Made by a program: the position numbers and the translations under genes. The notes under the pieces were generated by a model that was not told where the DNA came from, did no database searches, and saw nothing but the letters and a program-made list of their open reading frames with translations. Below are positions 14,700-38,050 of a stretch of 38,064 nucleotides of DNA, piece by piece. The DNA comes from Kutzneria sp. 744 (GTDB taxonomy: Bacteria; Actinomycetota; Actinomycetes; Mycobacteriales; Pseudonocardiaceae). The stretch covers positions 8,433,852-8,471,915 of the forward strand of contig NZ_KK037166.1 in assembly GCF_000568255.1 (NCBI RefSeq), written 5' to 3'. Within the stretch, counting starts at the first letter, position 1; each line of letters begins with the position of its first letter.

Positions 14700-15996
14700 G
14701 TGAATCGGGTCGACCCACGCCGCTGGCGTCTATGGTCCCTCCCACGTGGACTACTCGCGTACGTCCTCATGGTGGAGCTGGCGACCGTACTCATGCTGGT
14801 CACGACGGGCGCACTGACCCCGATTACGTCCTCGTCCTGGCTTTGGTTCGGCCTGCTGCTGGGCGCGTCGGTGATTCACCTCGAGGCCGCCCAGGGAATC
14901 GAACGTATTCGCGAAGTCTCCGCCGAGGGCAGCCCGTACACGCATATGCAGAGCGTCTGGTATTTCGCCGGCGTCCTGTTGTTGCCGCTGCCGCTGCTGG
15001 CGTTGTTGATCGTGTTGTCGTTCACCCACGAGTGGTTCCGGGTGTTCCGCGGCCAGGCGATCGCGTACCGGAAGGTCTTCTCCGCCGCCACCGTCGTGCT
15101 CGCCGTGGGCGCCGGGCAGCTGGCCTTCGCCGCCTTCTTCCCCGGTGGCGGAGCGCCGTACGCCGCCCAGCTCGACGGCCCGCTCGGCGCGGTCGCCGTC
15201 ATCGTCGCGGGGCTGGCGTACCGGATGGTCAACTACGCGCTCGTGGTCGGCGCCATCGTCGCCTCCAACCCCGAGCAGCCCGCCCGCAAGGCCCTCGGGC
15301 ACGCCTCCGACCAGCTGATCATCGCCGCCAGCGTCGGCCTCGGCTACGCGGTCGGCGTGTTCACCGTCGACCGGCCGTGGTCCATGCCGATCCTGCTGGT
15401 CACCGTGCTCGCGTTGCACATGGGCCTGCTGCTGCCGCAGTTCCGGATCGCCGCGCACACCGACTCCAAGACCGGGCTCGTCGACGCCGCCTGGTGGTCC
15501 GACCGCGCCGCCGACCAGCTCGACCGGGCGCGCCGGCTGGCCCGGACCGTCGGCGTGCTGATGATCGACCTCGACCACTTCAAGGAGGTCAACGACTGCT
15601 ACGGCCACCTCGCCGGCGACCAGGTCCTGACCGCCGTCGCCGAGGCCGTGCGCCACTCCGTCCGGTCCCTCGACCTCGTCGGCCGCTGGGGCGGCGAGGA
15701 GTTCGCCGTCCTCGTGCCCGCCGTCGGCGTCGACGAGCTCCAGGCGCCGCCGAGCGCGTGCGGCCGCCGTCCAGGCCCTCTCCGTCGACATCCACGACCT
15801 CGAGGGCCGGGACGCCACCGTCACCGCCCTCACCGTCTCCATCGGCGCCGGCCTCTACCCCGCCGCCGGCGCCGAGCTCAGCGACCTCCTCCTCGCCGTC
15901 GACGGCGCCCTGTTCCAGGCCAAGCGCCAGGGCCGCAACCGCACCGTCATGGCCAGCCGCGTCATCGCCGCCACCCCCCGCGAGCGCACCGCCTAG
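14700..15996 (+). CDS. Membrane diguanylate cyclase 1 (GGDEF), frameshifted
   Basis: About 432 residues after correcting two indels. Residues 1-250 hold about six to seven membrane helices, including SVWYFAGVLLLPLPLLALLI. The GGDEF domain follows: DSKTGLVDAAWW, MIDLDHFKEVNDCYGHLAGD and GRWGGEEFAVLVP. An allosteric I-site RSLD sits five residues before GGEEF. It should make c-di-GMP from two GTP. After DELQA the frame is lost; family sequence continues in a third frame (VQALSVDIHDLEGRDATVTA to TVMASRVIAATPRERTA, stop 15994-15996), so single bases are missing near 15743-15746 and 15761-15764. Start GTG 14700 follows a G-rich site. It is a paralogue of the cyclase at 16574-17866. Confidence 0.85.
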
Positions 15997-16006
15997 AAGC
16001 CGAGCC

Positions 16007-16025
16007 GGGTTGGTGGGCTCAACCC
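16007..16025. terminator. Weak hairpin after diguanylate cyclase 1
   Basis: GGGTTG and CAACCC arms with a 7-nt loop, 11 nt after the cyclase stop and 37 nt before the antitoxin-like gene. No T-run follows, so terminator function is uncertain. Confidence 0.3.
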
Positions 16026-16061
16026 TGGACGTGGTAATCCGAACTGTCATAGAACCGCTGT

Positions 16062-29923: not shown

Positions 29924-30478
29924 ATGGCCAAGTACGCGGGAACCAGGGCGGCGGTGATCGGCGCGGTCGACGACATCGGCCTCGCCATCGCGAAACGCCT
30001 GGTCGAAGGCGGTGCGCGCGTCGTGCTGACGGCGGACACCGCGGACCAGCGGGCCCACGCCCGGGCCGAACTGGGCTCGGCGGGACAGGTCGTCGCGCCG
30101 GCCGACATCGCGGCCGGTCTCGGCGACGAGGACGTGGACATCGTGTTCGCCGACGCCGTGGCCGACGCGACGCAGCTGCTGTCACGGCTGCGTGACGGCG
30201 GCTCGGTCGTGCTCACCACCCCCGCGTCCGCCGCAGGTGTCGAGGCGCTCGCCGCGGCGCTGGCGGTGCGCAGCATCCGGGTGAACGCGGTGACGCCGGG
30301 CTGCATCGCCGGCGGCGAAGCCACCCCGCTGCCGCCGCTCGGCCGGCTCGGTTCCGCCGAGGAGGTGGCCCGCGCCGCGCTGTTCCTGGCGACGGAGGCC
30401 ACCTTCACCACCGGCGCCCGCATTCCCGTCGACGGTGGCGGGAGCCATCGGAAGTCAACCAGGAGAACCGGAGCATGA
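29924..30478 (+). CDS. Short SDR-like protein lacking the catalytic Tyr-Lys
   Basis: A 184-residue Rossmann protein of the short-chain dehydrogenase family, about 60 residues shorter than normal. ATG 29924 follows GAAGGGAG. The nucleotide motif is altered (GAVDDIG; the middle Gly of GxxxGxG is Asp17). Strands VVLTADTADQ and SVVLTTPAS and the C-terminal ATFTTGARIPVDGG are recognisable, but the region with YxxxK is shortened: after SVVLTTPAS the chain runs directly to a helix and IRVNAVTPG. It should not work as a normal oxidoreductase; a binding role or loss of function is possible. The stop overlaps the MFS ATG (ATGA). Confidence 0.82.
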   Translation: MAKYAGTRAAVIGAVDDIGLAIAKRLVEGGARVVLTADTADQRAHARAELGSAGQVVAPADIAAGLGDEDVDIVFADAVADATQLLSRLRDGGSVVLTTPASAAGVEALAAALAVRSIRVNAVTPGCIAGGEATPLPPLGRLGSAEEVARAALFLATEATFTTGARIPVDGGGSHRKSTRRTGA

Positions 30479-31844
30479 GCACCCAAGAGACCACCTCCCC
30501 ACCGGTGCGGGACAACAGCGCGTCAAAACTCCCCCTCTTCGCGCTGTTGTCCCTCGCCACCGCCGTGTTCATCACCAGCCTCACGGAGACGCTGCCGGCC
30601 GGTCTGCTGCCGGCCATGAGCGGCTCGCTCGGCGTGAGCGAGTCGGCCACCGGGCAGACCGTGACGATCTACGCGCTGGGCAGTTGGATACGGTTTCTTA
30701 AAGGTGGCGCCACTAGGCGAGGGGCAACGGCCATTCTCACTCTGAGTCTACTAGCTCCTAGCCGAGCCCGCAAATGTGTTTTCAAAACGCGTCTAGAGTA
30801 GACCCAGTCGGCCACCGGGCAGACCGTGACGATCTAAGGGGGGGCACCGTGCTGACGGCGATCCCCCTGTCGACGGTGACCGCGGGCTGGCGGCGCAAGC
30901 GGTTGCTGCTGACCGCCATGGCCGGCTTCGCCGTGGCCAACACGGTCACGGCCGTGTCGTCGATGTACGGCCTGACGATGGTGGCCCGGTTCGTCGCCGG
31001 TGTCGCCGCCGGCCTGGCCTGGGCCCTGCTGGCCGGCTACGCCAGCCGCATGGTCGCCCCGAACCAGCGGGGACGGGCGATCGCCATCGCCATGGCGGGC
31101 ATTCCCGTCGCGCTGTGCCTCGGCGTGCCGGCCGGCACCTTCCTCGGGCAGCTCACCGGCTGGCGGACGGCGTTCCTGGCCATGACGGCCCTGACCGTGC
31201 TGCTGCTGGTGTGGATCGTCGCGGCCGTGCCGGACTACCCGGGGCAGGGGCGCGGTGAGCGGCCCAAGCTGCTGCCGACGCTGCGCATTCCCGGTGTGAC
31301 GCCGGTGCTGTTCGTCACGCTCGTTTTCGTGCTGGCGCACACCATTCTGTACGCCTACATCGCCACTTTCCTGACGGCGCTGGGCATGGGCGGCGACACC
31401 GACCTGGTGCTGCTGACCTTCGGCATCGCCTCCATCCTGAGCATCTGGGTCGTCGGCGCGCAGATCCACCGCCACCTGCGGATCCTCAGCGTCGTCAGCT
31501 CGCTGCTGGTCGCCGTGGCCGCGGTGCTGCTGGCCACGCTGTCCCACGACCAGGCCCTGGTGTACGTCGCCGCCGCGCTGTGGGGGCTGGGCTGGGGCGG
31601 CGTGCCGACCCTGCTGCAGACCGCGGCCGGTGAGGCCGGCGGCGAGTCGGCCGACGCGGCCCAGGCCATGCTCGTCACGCTGTGGAACGTGGCCATGGCC
31701 GGCGGCGGCGTGGTCGGCGGCGTCCTGCTCGACCTGGCCGGCAGCGGCTCGTTCCCGTGGGCCGTGCTGCTGCTGATGCTGCCGGTGATCGCGGTGGTCG
31801 TGGTCGCCCGCCGCCACGGTTTCCCCGCCCCTGCCAGCCACTGA
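30475..31844 (+). pseudogene. MFS transporter (DHA1), interrupted by 164 bp
   Basis: An AraJ-like exporter that would be 401 residues with 12 helices. It starts at ATG 30475 with AGGAGA upstream; helix 1 is FALLSLATAVFITSLTETLP. After ATGQTVTIYALG the frame enters a low-GC stretch and stops at 30801. Family sequence resumes at TVLTAIPLSTVTAGWRRKRL and continues, with MAGIPVALCLGVPAGTFLG, to the stop. Removing 30683-30846 joins the halves as YALGTVLTAI in frame. The downstream edge repeats 31 bp of the upstream edge. It belongs to the SDR-MFS-hydrolase operon. Confidence 0.87.
30641..30836. repeat. 31-bp direct repeats bracketing inserted sequence
   Basis: Identical 31-bp copies at 30641-30671 and 30806-30836, both starting AGTCGGCCACCGGGC. 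The first is part of the MFS coding sequence. The second is followed by a G-run (AAGGGGGGGCA) where the real gene should read ACGCGCTGGGCA. Between them lies about 120 bp of roughly 50% GC with no gene. No transposon ends are visible. A contig join with a poor-quality overlap fits best. Confidence 0.7.
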
Positions 31845-32979: not shown

Positions 32980-34116
32980 ATGTCGGTGAGCAAGTTACGC
33001 CTGACCGCGTTGGACAACGGCGTCCGCGTGCAGACATTCGTGGAGGACGTTTTCACGTCCCTGCGCCGAGCCGAACAACACCGGTGGGCCCGCGCCTACC
33101 TGAGCGGTCTGATTCGCGGCACCGGCCGCAAAACACCGCGGGAGCTGGCCGCCGCCGGTCGGCTGCCGCCGGCCGCGGCGAACGGCCTGCACCAGTTCAT
33201 CAACGCCAGCACGTGGGCGTGGGAACCGGTGCGCAGGCGCCTGGCGCTGCGGATCGCCGCCAACTCCACGCCGTACGCGTGGACCGTGGCCGAGATGATC
33301 GTGCCCAAACGGGGCGCGCATTCGGTCGGAGTGCACAAACGCGGCACCGTGAACTGCCAGCGGTCGCTGGGATTTTTCCTCGCGACCGACGCCGGCTGTT
33401 TCCCGGTGGACTGGAGCCTGATCCTCAACGACACGTGGGCCTGGGACGGGGAACTGCGCCGCCGGGCCCGCATCCCCGAGTCCGAGACCGGCCGTCCCGT
33501 CGGCGCGTACGTGCTCGACTACGCCGACAACGCCGCAGCCGAGCCGGACCTGCCGGATGTGCCGTGGATGCTCGATCTGACCCACTGCGACGACGCGGCC
33601 GGCGTCCTCGCCGGTCTCGTCCGGCGGCGGCTCGACTTCGCGTGCGAGGTCGACCCGGGGCAGCTGGTGGTCACCGGGCGCACGACGGTGGTCTCCGTCG
33701 GGGAGCTGATGGAGCGGCGGGACGGCAACCAGCGGCATGTGATGGTCCGCCACGCCGCCGGCGGGCGGTCCAACGCGGTGGCGATCTACGCGGCGTCGGT
33801 GCGGCTGCCGCTGTTCGACACCTTCTCCGAGGGCCGGTCCCGCCCGGTGCGGGTGCTGGAGTGGCCGGACCAGAACCGGCAGCGCCCGTCCCGCTTCTGG
33901 ATCACCGGTTTCACCAACAAGCGGGTCGGCGAGGTGCTGTCCCTGGTCCGGGCCCGGACCGCCGCCCTGTCGACCGTGACCGAGCTCCAGGAGGACTTCG
34001 GCGCGGCCGACTTCGAGGGCCGGTCCTTTCCCGGCTGGCACCACCACATGACCATGACCTCGGCCGCATACGCCTATCGGACGCTGCACGGCGACGTGCT
34101 CGCGACCGCGGGCTGA
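32980..34116 (+). CDS. IS701-like transposase-derived protein, probably domesticated
   Basis: A 378-residue protein with the fold of IS701/DDE_5 transposases: ARAYLSGLIRGTGRKTPREL at the N-terminus, HSVGVHKRGTVNCQRSLGFF, and C-terminal DFEGRSFPGWHHHMTM. The usual first catalytic motif DE-(x)n-K-K-G reads AEMIVPKRG, so Asp is replaced by Ala104. The likely second (Asp180) and third (Glu346 in FEGRS) residues are kept. One missing carboxylate should abolish strand transfer. No terminal inverted repeats or target duplication are seen. It stands 14 nt before a response regulator and next to biosynthetic genes, which suggests use as a DNA-binding regulator. Confidence 0.8.
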   Translation: MSVSKLRLTALDNGVRVQTFVEDVFTSLRRAEQHRWARAYLSGLIRGTGRKTPRELAAAGRLPPAAANGLHQFINASTWAWEPVRRRLALRIAANSTPYAWTVAEMIVPKRGAHSVGVHKRGTVNCQRSLGFFLATDAGCFPVDWSLILNDTWAWDGELRRRARIPESETGRPVGAYVLDYADNAAAEPDLPDVPWMLDLTHCDDAAGVLAGLVRRRLDFACEVDPGQLVVTGRTTVVSVGELMERRDGNQRHVMVRHAAGGRSNAVAIYAASVRLPLFDTFSEGRSRPVRVLEWPDQNRQRPSRFWITGFTNKRVGEVLSLVRARTAALSTVTELQEDFGAADFEGRSFPGWHHHMTMTSAAYAYRTLHGDVLATAG

Positions 34117-34130
34117 GGGGGACCGGGGAA

Positions 34131-34820
34131 ATGACCAACATCCTGGTGGTGGAACGCGACACGGCCGCGGCCGAGTCGGTGGTTTTCGAGCTGCGCAGAC
34201 AGGGACACGCGGCTCGCAGCGTGCATACCGGAAAACGGGCCCTTGAGGCTTATCGGGACGCCGATCTGGTGCTGCTCTCGCTGGACATGCCCGATATCGA
34301 CGGGCTGGAGGTGTGTCGGTCGTTACGTTCGGTCAGCGATGTCCCGATGATTGCCCGATCGCATCGTGACGACGAGTTGGAGCGGGTTCTCGCGCTGCGG
34401 GAAGGCGCGGACGACTGCGTGGCCAAAACGTGGGGAATGCGTGAGGTCGGGGCCCGTATCGACGCGGTGTTGCGGCGGGCCCGCAGTAGGTCGAGCGTGC
34501 CGGAGATTATTTCCATCGACCCGCTTCGCCTCGATCAGCGGACGCGTGAAGTGCATCTGCACGACCAGTTGGTCGATGTCACGTCCAAGGAATTCGAACT
34601 GCTGTACACGCTGGCGGCCAAGCCGGAGACCGTGGTGTCGCGCAAGGAGCTGATGGCCAGCGTCTGGGGGACCACCTGGGCCACCACCAGCCGCACCATC
34701 GACACGCACGTGAGCAGCCTGCGGGCCAAGCTCGGCTCCAGCCGGTGGATCATCACCGTGCGCGGGGTCGGCTACCGGATCGGCCACGCCTGGGGCGTGC
34801 CGGCCGAATCGGCCGTCTGA
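34131..34820 (+). CDS. Atypical OmpR-family response regulator (no phospho-acceptor Asp)
   Basis: A 229-residue orphan regulator with no histidine kinase nearby. The receiver domain (1-120) keeps Lys99 (DCVAKTWG) and a Ser at the switch position (Ser77), but the phospho-acceptor site reads LVLLSLDMPDIDG, with Ser50 where Asp is expected, and the acidic pair is reduced (VERD). The C-terminal winged helix (130-225) is intact: VDVTSKEFELLYTLAAKPET and RTIDTHVSSLRAKLG then GVGYRIG. Such receivers work without phosphorylation, sometimes by binding pathway products (JadR1 is a known case). ATG 34131 follows GGGGA. It probably controls the divergent racemase/HCS-like promoter. Confidence 0.9.
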   Translation: MTNILVVERDTAAAESVVFELRRQGHAARSVHTGKRALEAYRDADLVLLSLDMPDIDGLEVCRSLRSVSDVPMIARSHRDDELERVLALREGADDCVAKTWGMREVGARIDAVLRRARSRSSVPEIISIDPLRLDQRTREVHLHDQLVDVTSKEFELLYTLAAKPETVVSRKELMASVWGTTWATTSRTIDTHVSSLRAKLGSSRWIITVRGVGYRIGHAWGVPAESAV

Positions 34821-34868: not shown

Positions 34869-35663
34869 TCAGGCCGGCTGCCGCTCCAGGCGTCGCAGGA
34901 GCGGGTGCGCGGGTTCGGCGCCCACCGCCCGCGCCGCCCACCACGCCGAGGCGAGGTTCGAGGTCAGCAGCGTGCGGTCGGTGTTTTCGCCGGCCAGCTG
35001 GGTGACGGCGGCGAGCGTGCCCATGCCGGTGCCGGTGAACAGGAACGCGCTGCCGTCCCGCACGCGATGGTCGCGCAGGCGGCTCAGGATGGCCTCGGTG
35101 GTCACCTCGTACGGGTCGAAGTGGCCGTCCCGGACCGGCACGAGCACCACGTCGTCGACCGTCAGGCCGGCCCGCAGCCAGAAGTCGCGGGAGGTGTCGG
35201 TGAGCCAGGGCTGGTACGGGGAGACCAGGGTCAGGCGGGTCACGTCGAGCGCCTCGCACGCCGCGAGGATCGCCTGCGTCGACGACTGCACGGGGAAGCC
35301 GACACGCTCGGACAGCTCGTCGCAGAAGGCCCGGTCGCCGTCCGGGTTCAGCAGGTAGTGCGAGGCGCTGCAGGCCACGACGGCGGCGTCGAGACGCATG
35401 CCGCCGAATCCGGCGAGTGTGGCCGGCAGCACATTGTTGTACGTCTCCAGCATTTCCCGGAGCCCGATTCCGGGCGTGGTCGGAAAGCGAGCGGTGTACA
35501 CATTCGCGGCCGAACCGAGCAGGTGGTTGAACTCCGGTTCCGCGGTGGGGTTCTCCGGCGGGACGACGACGCCGACCCGGGGCAGCGAGAAAAGGTCCAT
35601 GTCGACACGGTAGGTCGCCACGGCCGTGACCGGGTCGGATTTGACGGTCGACCCATCGGTCAC
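34869..35663 (-). CDS. Asp/Glu racemase-family enzyme (maleate isomerase-like)
   Basis: A 264-residue protein of the aspartate/glutamate racemase superfamily, nearest in pattern to maleate cis-trans isomerases and arylmalonate decarboxylases: LPRVGVVVPPENPTAEPEFN, then the first active-site Cys in AAVVACSASHYLL (Cys98). The second Cys, normally in S-C-T-N, is replaced (FLFTGTGMGTL), while the following TSNLASAWWAAR is kept. With a single Cys it may be an isomerase or decarboxylase with changed mechanism. GTG 35663 is the longest start; ATG 35600 is possible. Divergent from the HCS-like gene with a shared control region. Confidence 0.8.
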   Translation of the reverse strand: MTDGSTVKSDPVTAVATYRVDMDLFSLPRVGVVVPPENPTAEPEFNHLLGSAANVYTARFPTTPGIGLREMLETYNNVLPATLAGFGGMRLDAAVVACSASHYLLNPDGDRAFCDELSERVGFPVQSSTQAILAACEALDVTRLTLVSPYQPWLTDTSRDFWLRAGLTVDDVVLVPVRDGHFDPYEVTTEAILSRLRDHRVRDGSAFLFTGTGMGTLAAVTQLAGENTDRTLLTSNLASAWWAARAVGAEPAHPLLRRLERQPA

Positions 35664-35823: not shown

Positions 35824-36969
35824 ATGTCGGCAGAAGCGAACAACACGGATTCGCGGCCCCGGATCTCCGACGCCACCCTGCGCGATTCCGCGCACATGGC
35901 GGGTGTCGAGTTCGGTCCCCGCGACGCCGCGGTCATCGCCGACCTGCTGGTGCGCACCGGCATCGAGCTGGTCGAGGTGGGCATGGTGTCCGGCCCCGGC
36001 TCGAAGGACGCGGACCTCATCGAGGCCGTGCACGCCGCCGTCACCCCCGAGCACAGCATGACGCTGGTCGTGGTGCGTGACCGCCAACAGGTGGCCAAGG
36101 CGCTGGACGAGGCCGAGCGCCTCGGCGTGCGCCACATCATGTACTCCATCCCCACCTCGGCCGCGCACGCCGAGCTGAAGCTGGGCTCGTCCAGCCTCAA
36201 GTTCCTGCAGACCCTGGCCCGCTCGGCCATCACCCAGGCCAAGGACCGCGGCTTCCACGTCACATTCAGCGGCGAGGACGGCGCCCGCACCCCGCGCGAG
36301 CGGCTCGTTCCCTACGTCGCCGGCGGTTTCGAGGCCGGCGCGGACCGCTTCCGGCTGGCCGAGACCGTCGCCTACCTGTCGCCGTGGCAGATGCAGGCCA
36401 AGATCGCCGACCTGACCGCGATCGACGGCGCGGAGATCGAGATCCACTCGCACAACATGCTGGGCATGGCCGTGGCCAACTCGCTGGCCGCGGTCCGGGC
36501 CGGCGCGCAGTGGATCTCGGCCACGGTCGGCGGCATCGGCGAGCGCGGCGGCAACGCCCCGCTGGCCGAGCTGCTCACCTCGCTGCGTGTGGTCAACGGC
36601 GACACGCGGTTCGACCTGACCCACCTCACCGAGCTGTCCCGGGTGGCGCTCAAGGGAGCCGGCCTCGGCGAGTCGTTCCAGTCCGGTCCGACCACCGCGC
36701 ACGCCTTCGCCTACGAGCTGCCGGGCCAGCTCACCAACCCCGAGGCGTACGAGACGCTGCCGGCCGAGCTGGTCGGCAACACCCGCGAGCTGAAGGTCCG
36801 CACCCGCCTCACGCCGGCCCTGGTCCGCTGGGCGCTGGCCGACTCCGGCGTGGTCGTCGACGTGGAGGCCTTCACGCCGTGGCTGGTGCAGCGGCAGCTG
36901 CGCGACGGCAGCCCGCTGCTGGACCGCGACGCCATCCGCAAGGCCGCCGTCGACTTCCTCGCCGCATGA
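35824..36969 (+). CDS. Homocitrate/isopropylmalate synthase-like DRE-TIM enzyme
   Basis: A 381-residue TIM-barrel protein of the HMGL-like family. Metal ligands: Asp21 in ATLRDSAHMAGVEF and His208/His210 with Asn211 in IEIHSHNMLGMAVAN. VTFSGEDGARTP and FRLAETVAYLSP match synthase motifs. The core TLRDGEQ is changed to TLRDSAH, losing the usual Glu, and HxHND to HSHNM, so the acyl acceptor or reaction may differ. Normal members join acetyl-CoA to a 2-oxo acid. GGAAGGAG lies nine nt before ATG 35824. It leads a run with lysW, lysX and an argC-like gene, suggesting that it makes the 2-oxo/amino-acid precursor handled on the carrier protein. Confidence 0.85.
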   Translation: MSAEANNTDSRPRISDATLRDSAHMAGVEFGPRDAAVIADLLVRTGIELVEVGMVSGPGSKDADLIEAVHAAVTPEHSMTLVVVRDRQQVAKALDEAERLGVRHIMYSIPTSAAHAELKLGSSSLKFLQTLARSAITQAKDRGFHVTFSGEDGARTPRERLVPYVAGGFEAGADRFRLAETVAYLSPWQMQAKIADLTAIDGAEIEIHSHNMLGMAVANSLAAVRAGAQWISATVGGIGERGGNAPLAELLTSLRVVNGDTRFDLTHLTELSRVALKGAGLGESFQSGPTTAHAFAYELPGQLTNPEAYETLPAELVGNTRELKVRTRLTPALVRWALADSGVVVDVEAFTPWLVQRQLRDGSPLLDRDAIRKAAVDFLAA

Positions 36970-37013
36970 ACCTGGCACAGCCTGAATCCCTCTACACAGC
37001 AAGGAGTTCACCC

Positions 37014-37199
37014 ATGACCGCGCCCACCCTCACCGGCGTCTGCCCCGAGTGCGAGACCGACCTGACCGTGCCGCCGATCGTCGAGGGCGAGACCCTGTCC
37101 TGCCCGGAGTGCCTGCTGACGCTGCGGGTGGAGGACATCCGGGACGGCCAGCTGACGCTGCAGATGATCGAGGTCCAGCTCCGCGACTGGGGTCAGTGA
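37014..37199 (+). CDS. lysW: LysW-type amino-group carrier protein ending in Gln
   Basis: A 61-residue protein. Two CxxC pairs (Cys10/Cys13, Cys30/Cys33) form the zinc knuckle, followed by an acidic strand region. LysW normally ends EDWGE and its last Glu side chain is joined to the substrate amino group. Here the end is RDWGQ: the final Glu is Gln61 (codon CAG before TGA). Unless deamidated, Gln has no free gamma-carboxyl. AAGGAG lies seven nt before ATG 37014. The stop overlaps the lysX ATG (TGATG), so the two are tightly coupled. Secondary-metabolism LysW proteins are known from vazabitide-type clusters. Confidence 0.88.
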   Translation: MTAPTLTGVCPECETDLTVPPIVEGETLSCPECLLTLRVEDIRDGQLTLQMIEVQLRDWGQ

Positions 37200-38050
37200 T
37201 GGGCCCGAGCATCGCGATCGTCGCCGACCGCATCGGCTGGGAGGAGCGGCGGCTGCTGGACGTGGCCGGCGACTTCGGCCTGCGGATCGACTGGGTCAAC
37301 GACGAGTCGCTGTGCCTCGGCGACCCGGCCGCGCCCCAGCTGCGGGACTACGACGTGGCCATGGTCCGCAGCCGCAGCTACACCCGCGGCGGCCTGATCG
37401 CCACGCTGGCCGAGGCGGCCGGCGTGCGGACCCTCAACTCGGCCCGGGCGATCCACGCCTGTGAGAACAAGGCGGCGCTGCGGGCCGAGCTGGGCGCCGC
37501 CGGCGTTCCCGTGCCGGAGTTCCGGCTTGTGCTGTCCCGCAAGGACTTCGACAAGGCGCTGGCGGAAATGGCGCTGCCGCTGGTGTTCAAGCCGGTCTTC
37601 GGCGGCATGGGCAAGCGGGTCACGCTGATCCGTGACGCCGACATCGCCGCGTCCGTCTACGACTACGTCGAGGACCTCGGGCACGCGTTCGAGCAGGCCT
37701 GCCTGCTGGAGCCGTACATCGGCGGCGGCACCTCGGTGCGCTGCCTGGTCGTCGGCACGGAACTGGTCGGCGCGGCCGAGTTCAGCAGCGGTGGCACGGA
37801 CTGGCGCAACAACGCGGCGCTGGGCAACAGCCACCGGGCCGTCGAGCACGACCCCGAGGTGCTGAAGATCGTCGACGGCGTGCTGGGCGTGCTCGGCGCG
37901 GGCATCTACGGCGTCGACCTGTTCCGCACCGCCGACGGCTTCGTCGTCAACGAGGTCAACCACGCCCCCGGCTTCCGGGCCGTGGCCGCGGCGACCGGGA
38001 CCGACATCGCCTCGGCCGTCGGTCGGCACCTCAAGGAGCAACTGTCATGA
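37199..38050 (+). CDS. lysX: LysX-like ATP-grasp ligase (carrier protein-amino acid)
   Basis: A 283-residue RimK/LysX-family ATP-grasp enzyme. It has an N-terminal region MGPSIAIVADRIGWEERRLL, substrate part VRTLNSARAIHACENKAALR, ATP-binding Lys in LVFKPVFGGMGKRVTLI, and metal ligands in VNEVNHAPGFRAV. LysX ligates the alpha-amino group of aminoadipate (or an analogue) to the C-terminal Glu of LysW with ATP. ATG 37199 overlaps the lysW stop, and its own stop overlaps the next ATG. The partner ends in Gln, so its active site may be adapted; otherwise the motifs look intact. Confidence 0.9.
   Translation: MGPSIAIVADRIGWEERRLLDVAGDFGLRIDWVNDESLCLGDPAAPQLRDYDVAMVRSRSYTRGGLIATLAEAAGVRTLNSARAIHACENKAALRAELGAAGVPVPEFRLVLSRKDFDKALAEMALPLVFKPVFGGMGKRVTLIRDADIAASVYDYVEDLGHAFEQACLLEPYIGGGTSVRCLVVGTELVGAAEFSSGGTDWRNNAALGNSHRAVEHDPEVLKIVDGVLGVLGAGIYGVDLFRTADGFVVNEVNHAPGFRAVAAATGTDIASAVGRHLKEQLS

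Follow-up and report, generated by a model that had tools for sequence, protein, structure and literature searches.

The window, the whole stretch of 38,064 nucleotides from Kutzneria sp. 744 that was analyzed, contains near its end a short forward-strand gene (positions 37014..37199) that encodes a LysW-like amino-group carrier with the C-terminus RDWGQ, as indicated by its translation, its NF041070 and PF21344 scores and its relatives. The translated product, MTAPTLTGVCPECETDLTVPPIVEGETLSCPECLLTLRVEDIRDGQLTLQMIEVQLRDWGQ*, has 61 residues, contains two CPEC knuckles and ends in the tail QLRDWGQ. On the same strand, a ribosome-binding-like site (AAGGAG, 37001..37006) precedes lysW, the C-terminal Gln codon CAG (37194..37196) is followed by TGA, and lysX starts at position 37199 within the sequence TGATG, overlapping the lysW stop codon by one base. 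The four CPxC cysteines and the DWG motif are intact, the zinc-binding residues being judged by sequence only. The earlier note had read the last codon as CAG and the end as DWGQ, had described the zinc knuckle and DWG as intact and lysX as overlapping, and had considered the gene to look functional. All of these readings were borne out: the Gln is real, the frame and motifs are intact, and 53 of 54 related loci share the CAG codon.

The carrier scored below the cut-offs of both families (NF041070, 41.5 versus 75 bits; PF21344, 23 versus 27 bits), and the NF041070 cut-off was reached in none of 394 genomes of the class, Glu-ended carriers included. It resembles the LysW/ArgW system of Thermus, Sulfolobus and haloarchaea in its four-cysteine zinc-knuckle-like domain, its DWG tail and its adjoining gene for a LysX-type ligase, after which lysY and lysZ follow. 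However, it ends in DWGQ and lacks the C-terminal Glu to which LysW/ArgW substrates are attached (EDWGE); the known tail is EEDWGE, whereas that of the clade described below is LRDWGQ. In the source genome, a single contig of 11.6 Mb, one carrier match was found at E ≤ 0.001, together with a further weak, partial match (E 0.004), and six sampled genomes of the same genus, Kutzneria, contained no carrier match.

The upstream gene of the operon (35824..36969, forward strand) encodes an HMGL/homocitrate-synthase-like enzyme (PF00682, 169.1 bits; 48/54 related loci), and lysX (37199..38050, forward strand) encodes a LysX/RimK-family ATP-grasp ligase in which GGMGK stands for GSWGR and Phe195 for a conserved Arg. 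The divergent neighbor (34869..35663, reverse strand) is arylmalonate-decarboxylase/EutA-like (PF17645, 40.8 bits; 34/54 related loci). A response-regulator-type transcription factor (34131..34820, forward strand) has a relative in 37 of the 54 loci, a count (tblastn, E ≤ 1e-10) to which any OmpR-type regulator may contribute. An IS701-family transposase-like gene (32980-34116; NF033540, 229 bits), perhaps a domesticated gene of the cluster, has a relative in 26 of the 54 loci. A frame for an MFS transporter (30475-31844), relatives of which occur in 47/54 loci, seems to be broken close to a direct repeat of 36 bases (30636-30671 and 30801-30836).

Distribution of the glutamine-ended carrier

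Using four aligned relatives as the query, we scanned 84,980 species genomes and obtained 54 loci on 50 contigs; the patterns applied (G[VIE]CPECET and M[VI]EVQLRD) exclude the last residue, but limit the scan to near relatives. The loci belong to Streptomyces, Kitasatospora, Actinacidiphila, Lentzea, Amycolatopsis, Nocardia, Kribbella, Actinoplanes, Sphaerisporangium, Nocardiopsis and Actinopolyspora. The carrier ended in DWGQ in 53 of the 54 loci, with CAG as the Gln codon in every one of these 53, and the sole exception was Actinopolyspora alba (L094), the only one of 10 genomes of its genus to contain the gene, where the end is DWGE with GAG. In Streptomyces, the gene was present in 25 of 392 genomes, and all 26 loci, a set that overlaps the 54, ended in DWGQ. 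Among distinct carriers, counted from the first knuckle on and with the window included, 69 of 70 ended in Gln (69 of 71 once a Rhodococcus sequence was added); the D, W and G ahead of the last residue were invariant in the 70, and two CPxC motifs were found in all 70, as the search pattern itself demanded (CPEC). Because 53/54 and 26/26 loci agree on DWGQ, chance is excluded, and a sequencing error or a decayed gene can be set aside with near certainty; the operon was open from the HMGL gene to the GATase gene described below wherever it was readable. The earlier note had described the Gln end at this one locus and had proposed a survey of homologs in actinomycete clusters. The Gln end proved to be real and the survey found it elsewhere, not as a local oddity but as the rule of a widespread clade (25/392 Streptomyces genomes and ten other actinomycete genera) that has almost always lost the attachment Glu.

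In contrast, canonical actinomycete control carriers, some of which form near-identical pairs, ended in Glu in 18 of 18 cases (16 EDWGE and 2 EDFGE). One search gave 30 matches, of which 19 were full length (16 Glu-ended and 3 Gln-ended), while 11 weak or partial ones, including one in the window's own genome, were left out; the controls are the 16 Glu-ended full-length matches and two from another search. Nine plasmid records also had a carrier match, and of the four that were read, two from Streptomyces had the Gln end, and those from Rhodococcus fascians A21d2 and R. erythropolis MGMM8 had DWGE. Among 401 genomes of another family, two had a match: one ended in DWGE (G1222), with a LysX nearly identical to that of the R. 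erythropolis plasmid, and the other in DWGQ (G1247), its locus being the same place as that of Nocardia sp. CDC159 (L095).

In the two Rhodococcus strains (L160 and L161) the cluster is thus plasmid-borne with a DWGE carrier, which is unannotated in L161. We considered whether this plasmid cluster is linked to the att virulence locus, a set of ten genes according to passages of two reports (PMC4092121, PMC7261884), but could not establish a link, as nothing found there ties att to the plasmid stretch examined.

The literature searched, which did not include the primary papers on actinomycete carriers, contained no mention of a Gln-ended carrier, so that prior notice is possible; nor did we see the C-terminal residue treated in the literature on LysW and Streptomyces that was searched. 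In the literature covered, the terminal Glu is treated as the essential attachment point, and the exchange of Glu54 for Ala in the carrier is described as breaking the haloarchaeal arginine system, with arginine auxotrophy in Natrinema (passages of PMC10433800).

Gene set and the GATase/C26-type enzyme in the place of LysK

The usual gene order was HMGL, lysW, lysX, lysY, lysZ, class I GATase, dehydrogenase (of the Glu/Leu/Phe/Val type), AMP-binding ligase, PLP aminotransferase and FAH/GguC-like. In the 54 loci, some of which are cut by contig ends, the core genes were counted 48 (HMGL), 50 (LysX), 54 (LysY), 53 (LysZ) and 53 (GATase) times, and the tailoring genes 52 (dehydrogenase), 52 (AMP ligase), 49 (aminotransferase) and 46 (FAH-like) times. 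Nocardia sp. CDC159 (L095) has a reduced cluster, in which HMGL, lysW (DWGQ), lysX, lysY, lysZ and the GATase gene remain, and a search of the 20 kb of this locus gave no dehydrogenase, AMP ligase, aminotransferase or FAH-like gene. The GATase, HMGL, dehydrogenase, GntC-like aminotransferase and FAH-like genes had no detected relative at any of the 18 control loci (tblastn, E ≤ 1e-3), where AMP ligases do occur.

The class I GATase/C26-type gene follows lysZ in 53 of the 54 loci and encodes 49 distinct proteins besides that of the window genome, four locus pairs sharing one GATase gene; the only locus in which it is missing (L074) lies on a contig that ends before that place. In 52 of the 53 loci, no more than 181 bases separate lysZ from the GATase gene; in L095 the distance is 467 bases. 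The triad Cys82, His168 and Glu170 is present in all 54 GATase sequences (53 loci and the window genome), that of A. alba included. A linked amidase-like gene, for which the earlier note had recommended a search, hence exists. The known LysW/ArgW system has LysK instead of such a gene, and we found a LysK relative (M20) in none of the 54 Gln-clade loci, compared with 16 of the 18 Glu-ended controls (by similarity to the query, the L098 protein, which Pfam assigned to PF01546). The M20 relative was also absent from six further loci (four on plasmids, G1222 and G1247), one of which repeats L095, and the LysK family model TIGR01902 exceeded its cut-off in none of four clade genomes, where weaker M20 matches exist. 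Among the 13 controls with both genes, LysK lies at most 261 bases downstream of lysZ in 10 and elsewhere in three. Since LysK stands just after lysZ in most controls and the GATase gene stands there in the clade, the GATase occupies the slot where LysK usually stands.

The GATase protein exceeded the Pfam cut-offs of both GATase class I (PF00117, 75.7 bits) and Peptidase_C26 (PF07722, 39.7 bits), and four homologs are publicly annotated, by annotation only, as members of the gamma-glutamyl-gamma-aminobutyrate hydrolase family. It accordingly resembles PuuD and gamma-glutamyl hydrolase (GATase class I/C26) in its Cys-His-Glu triad, its PF07722 score and the PuuD-type annotation of the four homologs. 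Unlike the PuuD group, however, it is encoded inside a carrier operon, is characterized by sequence alone, and scores closest to the GATase part of GMP synthase (TIGR00888, 79.5 bits), although below that family's cut-off (172.15 bits); the solved relatives found were GMP synthases. Passages of PMC4673825 and PMC10526850 describe Asp172 of PfGMPS as the GMP-synthase residue that binds the ammonium of glutamine. This Asp is lost in the clade GATases (Leu132 in 53 and Arg in 1), whereas 53 of 54 retain the Gln reported as the ligand of the carboxylate, and the motif FHRHTL is compatible with the use of free glutamine. We rejected the argument that the lost ammonium anchor proves a peptidyl substrate, because a similar motif (HSL) occurs in a TrpG-like protein from the same genome, which makes the loss neutral between free and protein-bound glutamine.

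In four Streptomyces strains (L051/L092, L053/L078, L055/L086 and L065/L068), there are two DWGQ carriers, encoded on opposite strands and separated by about 10 to 11 kb, the second adjoining an aminotransferase gene and a FAH-like gene and having no LysX of its own. Genome G786 likewise contains two DWGQ carriers at this spacing and in this orientation.

The LysX ligase and the order of events

The window LysX exceeded the cut-off of the RimK-family model TIGR00768 (169.9 versus 143.4 bits) and not that of the LysX equivalog TIGR02144 (165.5 versus 275.6 bits), and its nearest solved relative was 3vpb (Sulfolobus ArgX). It keeps K91, K131, D240, E252 and N254, which we take to be the Mg/ATP residues of LysX. 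It also has Arg203 and Leu208, like ArgX (3vpb) and unlike Thermus LysX; as this ArgX-type motif presumably means glutamate, a glutamate-like substrate is likely.

We compared LysX among the 50 of 54 loci with a LysX match, the other four being the second-carrier loci. In the LysX-type ligase, a GSWGR loop is reported to recognize EDWGE (passages of PMC10433800). SWGR was found in 17 of 17 control LysX sequences, compared with GGMG[K/R] in 50 of 50 clade sequences and in A. alba, the window having GGMGK. Position 195 is Phe in all 51 clade sequences, whereas 14 of 17 controls, three solved LysX/ArgX proteins and E. coli RimK have Arg there. Position 258 is Glu in 17 of 17 controls, Gly or Ala in the clade and Gly in E. 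coli RimK. However, GGMG[K/R], Phe195 and the changes at position 258 also occur in the Glu-ended Rhodococcus lineage. We therefore rejected the possibility that the loop change is specific to Gln; the LysX changes mark the GATase clade with its LRDWG tail, not Gln as such.

In phylogenetic trees, the clade LysX sequences formed one group against the controls (support 100/99 in the larger set without Rhodococcus and 100/100 in the set with it). In a tree of concatenated LysX-LysY-LysZ from 38 loci (five controls lacked a part), Rhodococcus (DWGE) was sister to all other clade members (SH-aLRT 82, bootstrap 93), a split also recovered with LysX alone (SH-aLRT 83, bootstrap 93). Nocardia CDC159 (DWGQ) branched next, with 99.9/99 for the rest, and A. 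alba (DWGE) then stood beside the remainder (98.3/68); the larger LysX set, which lacks Rhodococcus, placed A. alba with S. pini (DWGQ; 98/82). With this moderate support, the Rhodococcus lineage probably branches first, and the swap of LysK for the GATase may be older than the change of Glu to Gln. As the outgroup and Rhodococcus both have Glu, the most parsimonious history would be that the GATase replaced LysK and LysX was remodeled first, and that Glu changed to Gln later; the DWGE end of A. alba is then either a reversal or a relic.

A candidate mechanism of priming and release

The best explanation for the cluster is a LysW-type amino-group carrier system for a natural-product amino acid. 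Actinomycetes have amino-group carrier clusters of the vazabitide, s56-p1 and azinomycin types. The clade resembles them in that carrier-based amino-acid building takes place inside a natural-product cluster (for the azinomycin and vazabitide clusters, passages of PMC9570651), and the DWGQ carrier marks a family of such clusters. Amino-group carriers are already known, and the Gln-ended form with a GATase for LysK is a new variant, for which we infer the mechanism, including every catalytic step, linkage and substrate. The Gln end and the GATase suggest, at the level of sequence, a new way to prime and unload carriers, and they pose a clean biochemical question, namely which enzyme creates the site of attachment and which one releases the substrate.

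In chemical terms, Gln at the C-terminus amounts to Glu with ammonia capping its gamma-carboxyl. LysK cuts a gamma-glutamyl amide beside the free alpha-carboxylate at the carrier C-terminus, and a C-terminal Gln presents the same type of bond. Since the Gln is LysK's bond with ammonia in it, a GATase/C26 release enzyme would also be fit to recognize and prime the encoded Gln. We tentatively hypothesized, at a little under even chances, that the GATase-like enzyme is a carrier gamma-glutamyl amidase that replaces LysK in release and uncaps Gln to Glu for LysX. In this mechanism, the enzyme would first hydrolyze DWGQ to DWGE; on the gamma-carboxyl thus exposed, LysX would then ligate an amino acid that is probably glutamate-like; LysZ would phosphorylate and LysY reduce the carrier-bound substrate; and, after tailoring, the GATase-like enzyme would hydrolyze the gamma-glutamyl isopeptide to release the product. 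The earlier note had raised deamidation of the Gln, as Dop performs on Pup, a small protein that is likewise encoded with a C-terminal Gln requiring deamidation before ligation. A linked amidase-like gene is indeed present, but it belongs to a family other than that of Dop, and deamidation cannot be its only job, because the Glu-ended Rhodococcus and A. alba keep the enzyme; recruitment solely as a Gln deamidase is ruled out.

The amidase hypothesis accounts for the swap (GATase after lysZ in 53/54 versus 0/18 Glu-ended control loci; LysK relative in 0/54 versus 16/18), for the retention of the GATase in L095, where tailoring genes were not found, and for the triad enzyme of Rhodococcus and A. 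alba, which have no LysK in their loci, as expected if the enzyme also releases. The GATase class I and Peptidase_C26 scores, the hydrolase annotation of four homologs and the position of Rhodococcus outside the rest of the clade, which may place the swap before Gln, are consistent with it. However, with Glu as the working form there is no strong reason for the conservation of Gln (69/70), which one base change in the codon would turn into Glu. The branching order for an early swap has no more than moderate support, the loci that show the co-occurrence belong to a single family of related clusters and are not independent evidence, and, FHRHTL being compatible with free glutamine, the active site does not favor a peptidyl substrate. 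Outside L095, the FAH-like protein (46/54 loci) is another possible candidate hydrolase.

The conservation of Gln would be explained, as would a dispensable LysK, if the remodeled LysX joined the substrate to the free alpha-carboxylate of Gln, the amide staying in place and blocking competition by the side chain. RimK-type ligases extend C-termini, and the window LysX passes the RimK-family model and not the LysX equivalog, has GGMGK where the EDWGE-recognizing loop would be, and belongs to a clade with Gly or Ala at position 258, where E. coli RimK has Gly and all 17 controls have Glu. Nevertheless, we consider alpha-carboxylate loading unlikely: Phe195, where RimK has Arg, indicates that LysX is not simply RimK-like, the same signature occurs in the DWGE Rhodococcus and so is not tied to Gln, and no conserved peptidase for an alpha-linked product was recognized among the flanking gene families scanned, which cover part of the flanks.

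Similarly doubtful is the idea that the GATase has nothing to do with the carrier end and serves as an ordinary source of ammonia in tailoring, such as acyl phosphate amidation or reductive amination, with the Gln deamidated otherwise or used via its alpha-carboxylate. The enzyme's likeness to GMP synthase, in both family score (79.5 bits, below the cut-off) and solved relatives, fits a role in which it could simply supply ammonia to another step, and an amino-acid dehydrogenase gene often adjoins it; yet the GATase is kept in L095, in which neither the dehydrogenase nor the AMP ligase nor the aminotransferase was found, and it takes LysK's place in the gene order. Transamidation, in which the GATase would form a gamma-glutamyl thioester from the carrier Gln and pass it to the substrate amine, ammonia later regenerating Gln as the resting state, would explain the conservation of Gln and its coupling to a Cys-His-Glu amidotransferase, but is very improbable, as LysX with its retained ATP-grasp residues would be superfluous and the A. 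alba and Rhodococcus carriers end in Glu. To our knowledge, neither an alpha-carboxylate nor a transamidation linkage is known in amino-group carrier chemistry.

Returning to the amidase hypothesis, gating of the unloaded carrier is one possible reason for the strict conservation of Gln, alpha-carboxylate loading being another. With chances somewhat below even, the carrier may be self-gated, made in a form that its ammonia-capped Gln keeps unloadable until one GATase-type enzyme uncaps and later unloads it, or, more boldly, the Gln may stay, with linkage through the alpha-carboxylate or by transamidation from a GATase thioester. If the carrier is self-gated, priming and release would share one active site.

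As for the product, the reduced cluster of L095 also contains a LysR regulator and a LysE-type exporter, the latter suggesting an exported amino acid. The best NCBIfam match of the PLP aminotransferase (14798-16045 in locus L002) was GntC (131 bits, below the cut-off of 415), a PLP cyclodehydratase of gamma-hydroxyarginine, and this resemblance may hint at a cyclized amino acid product.
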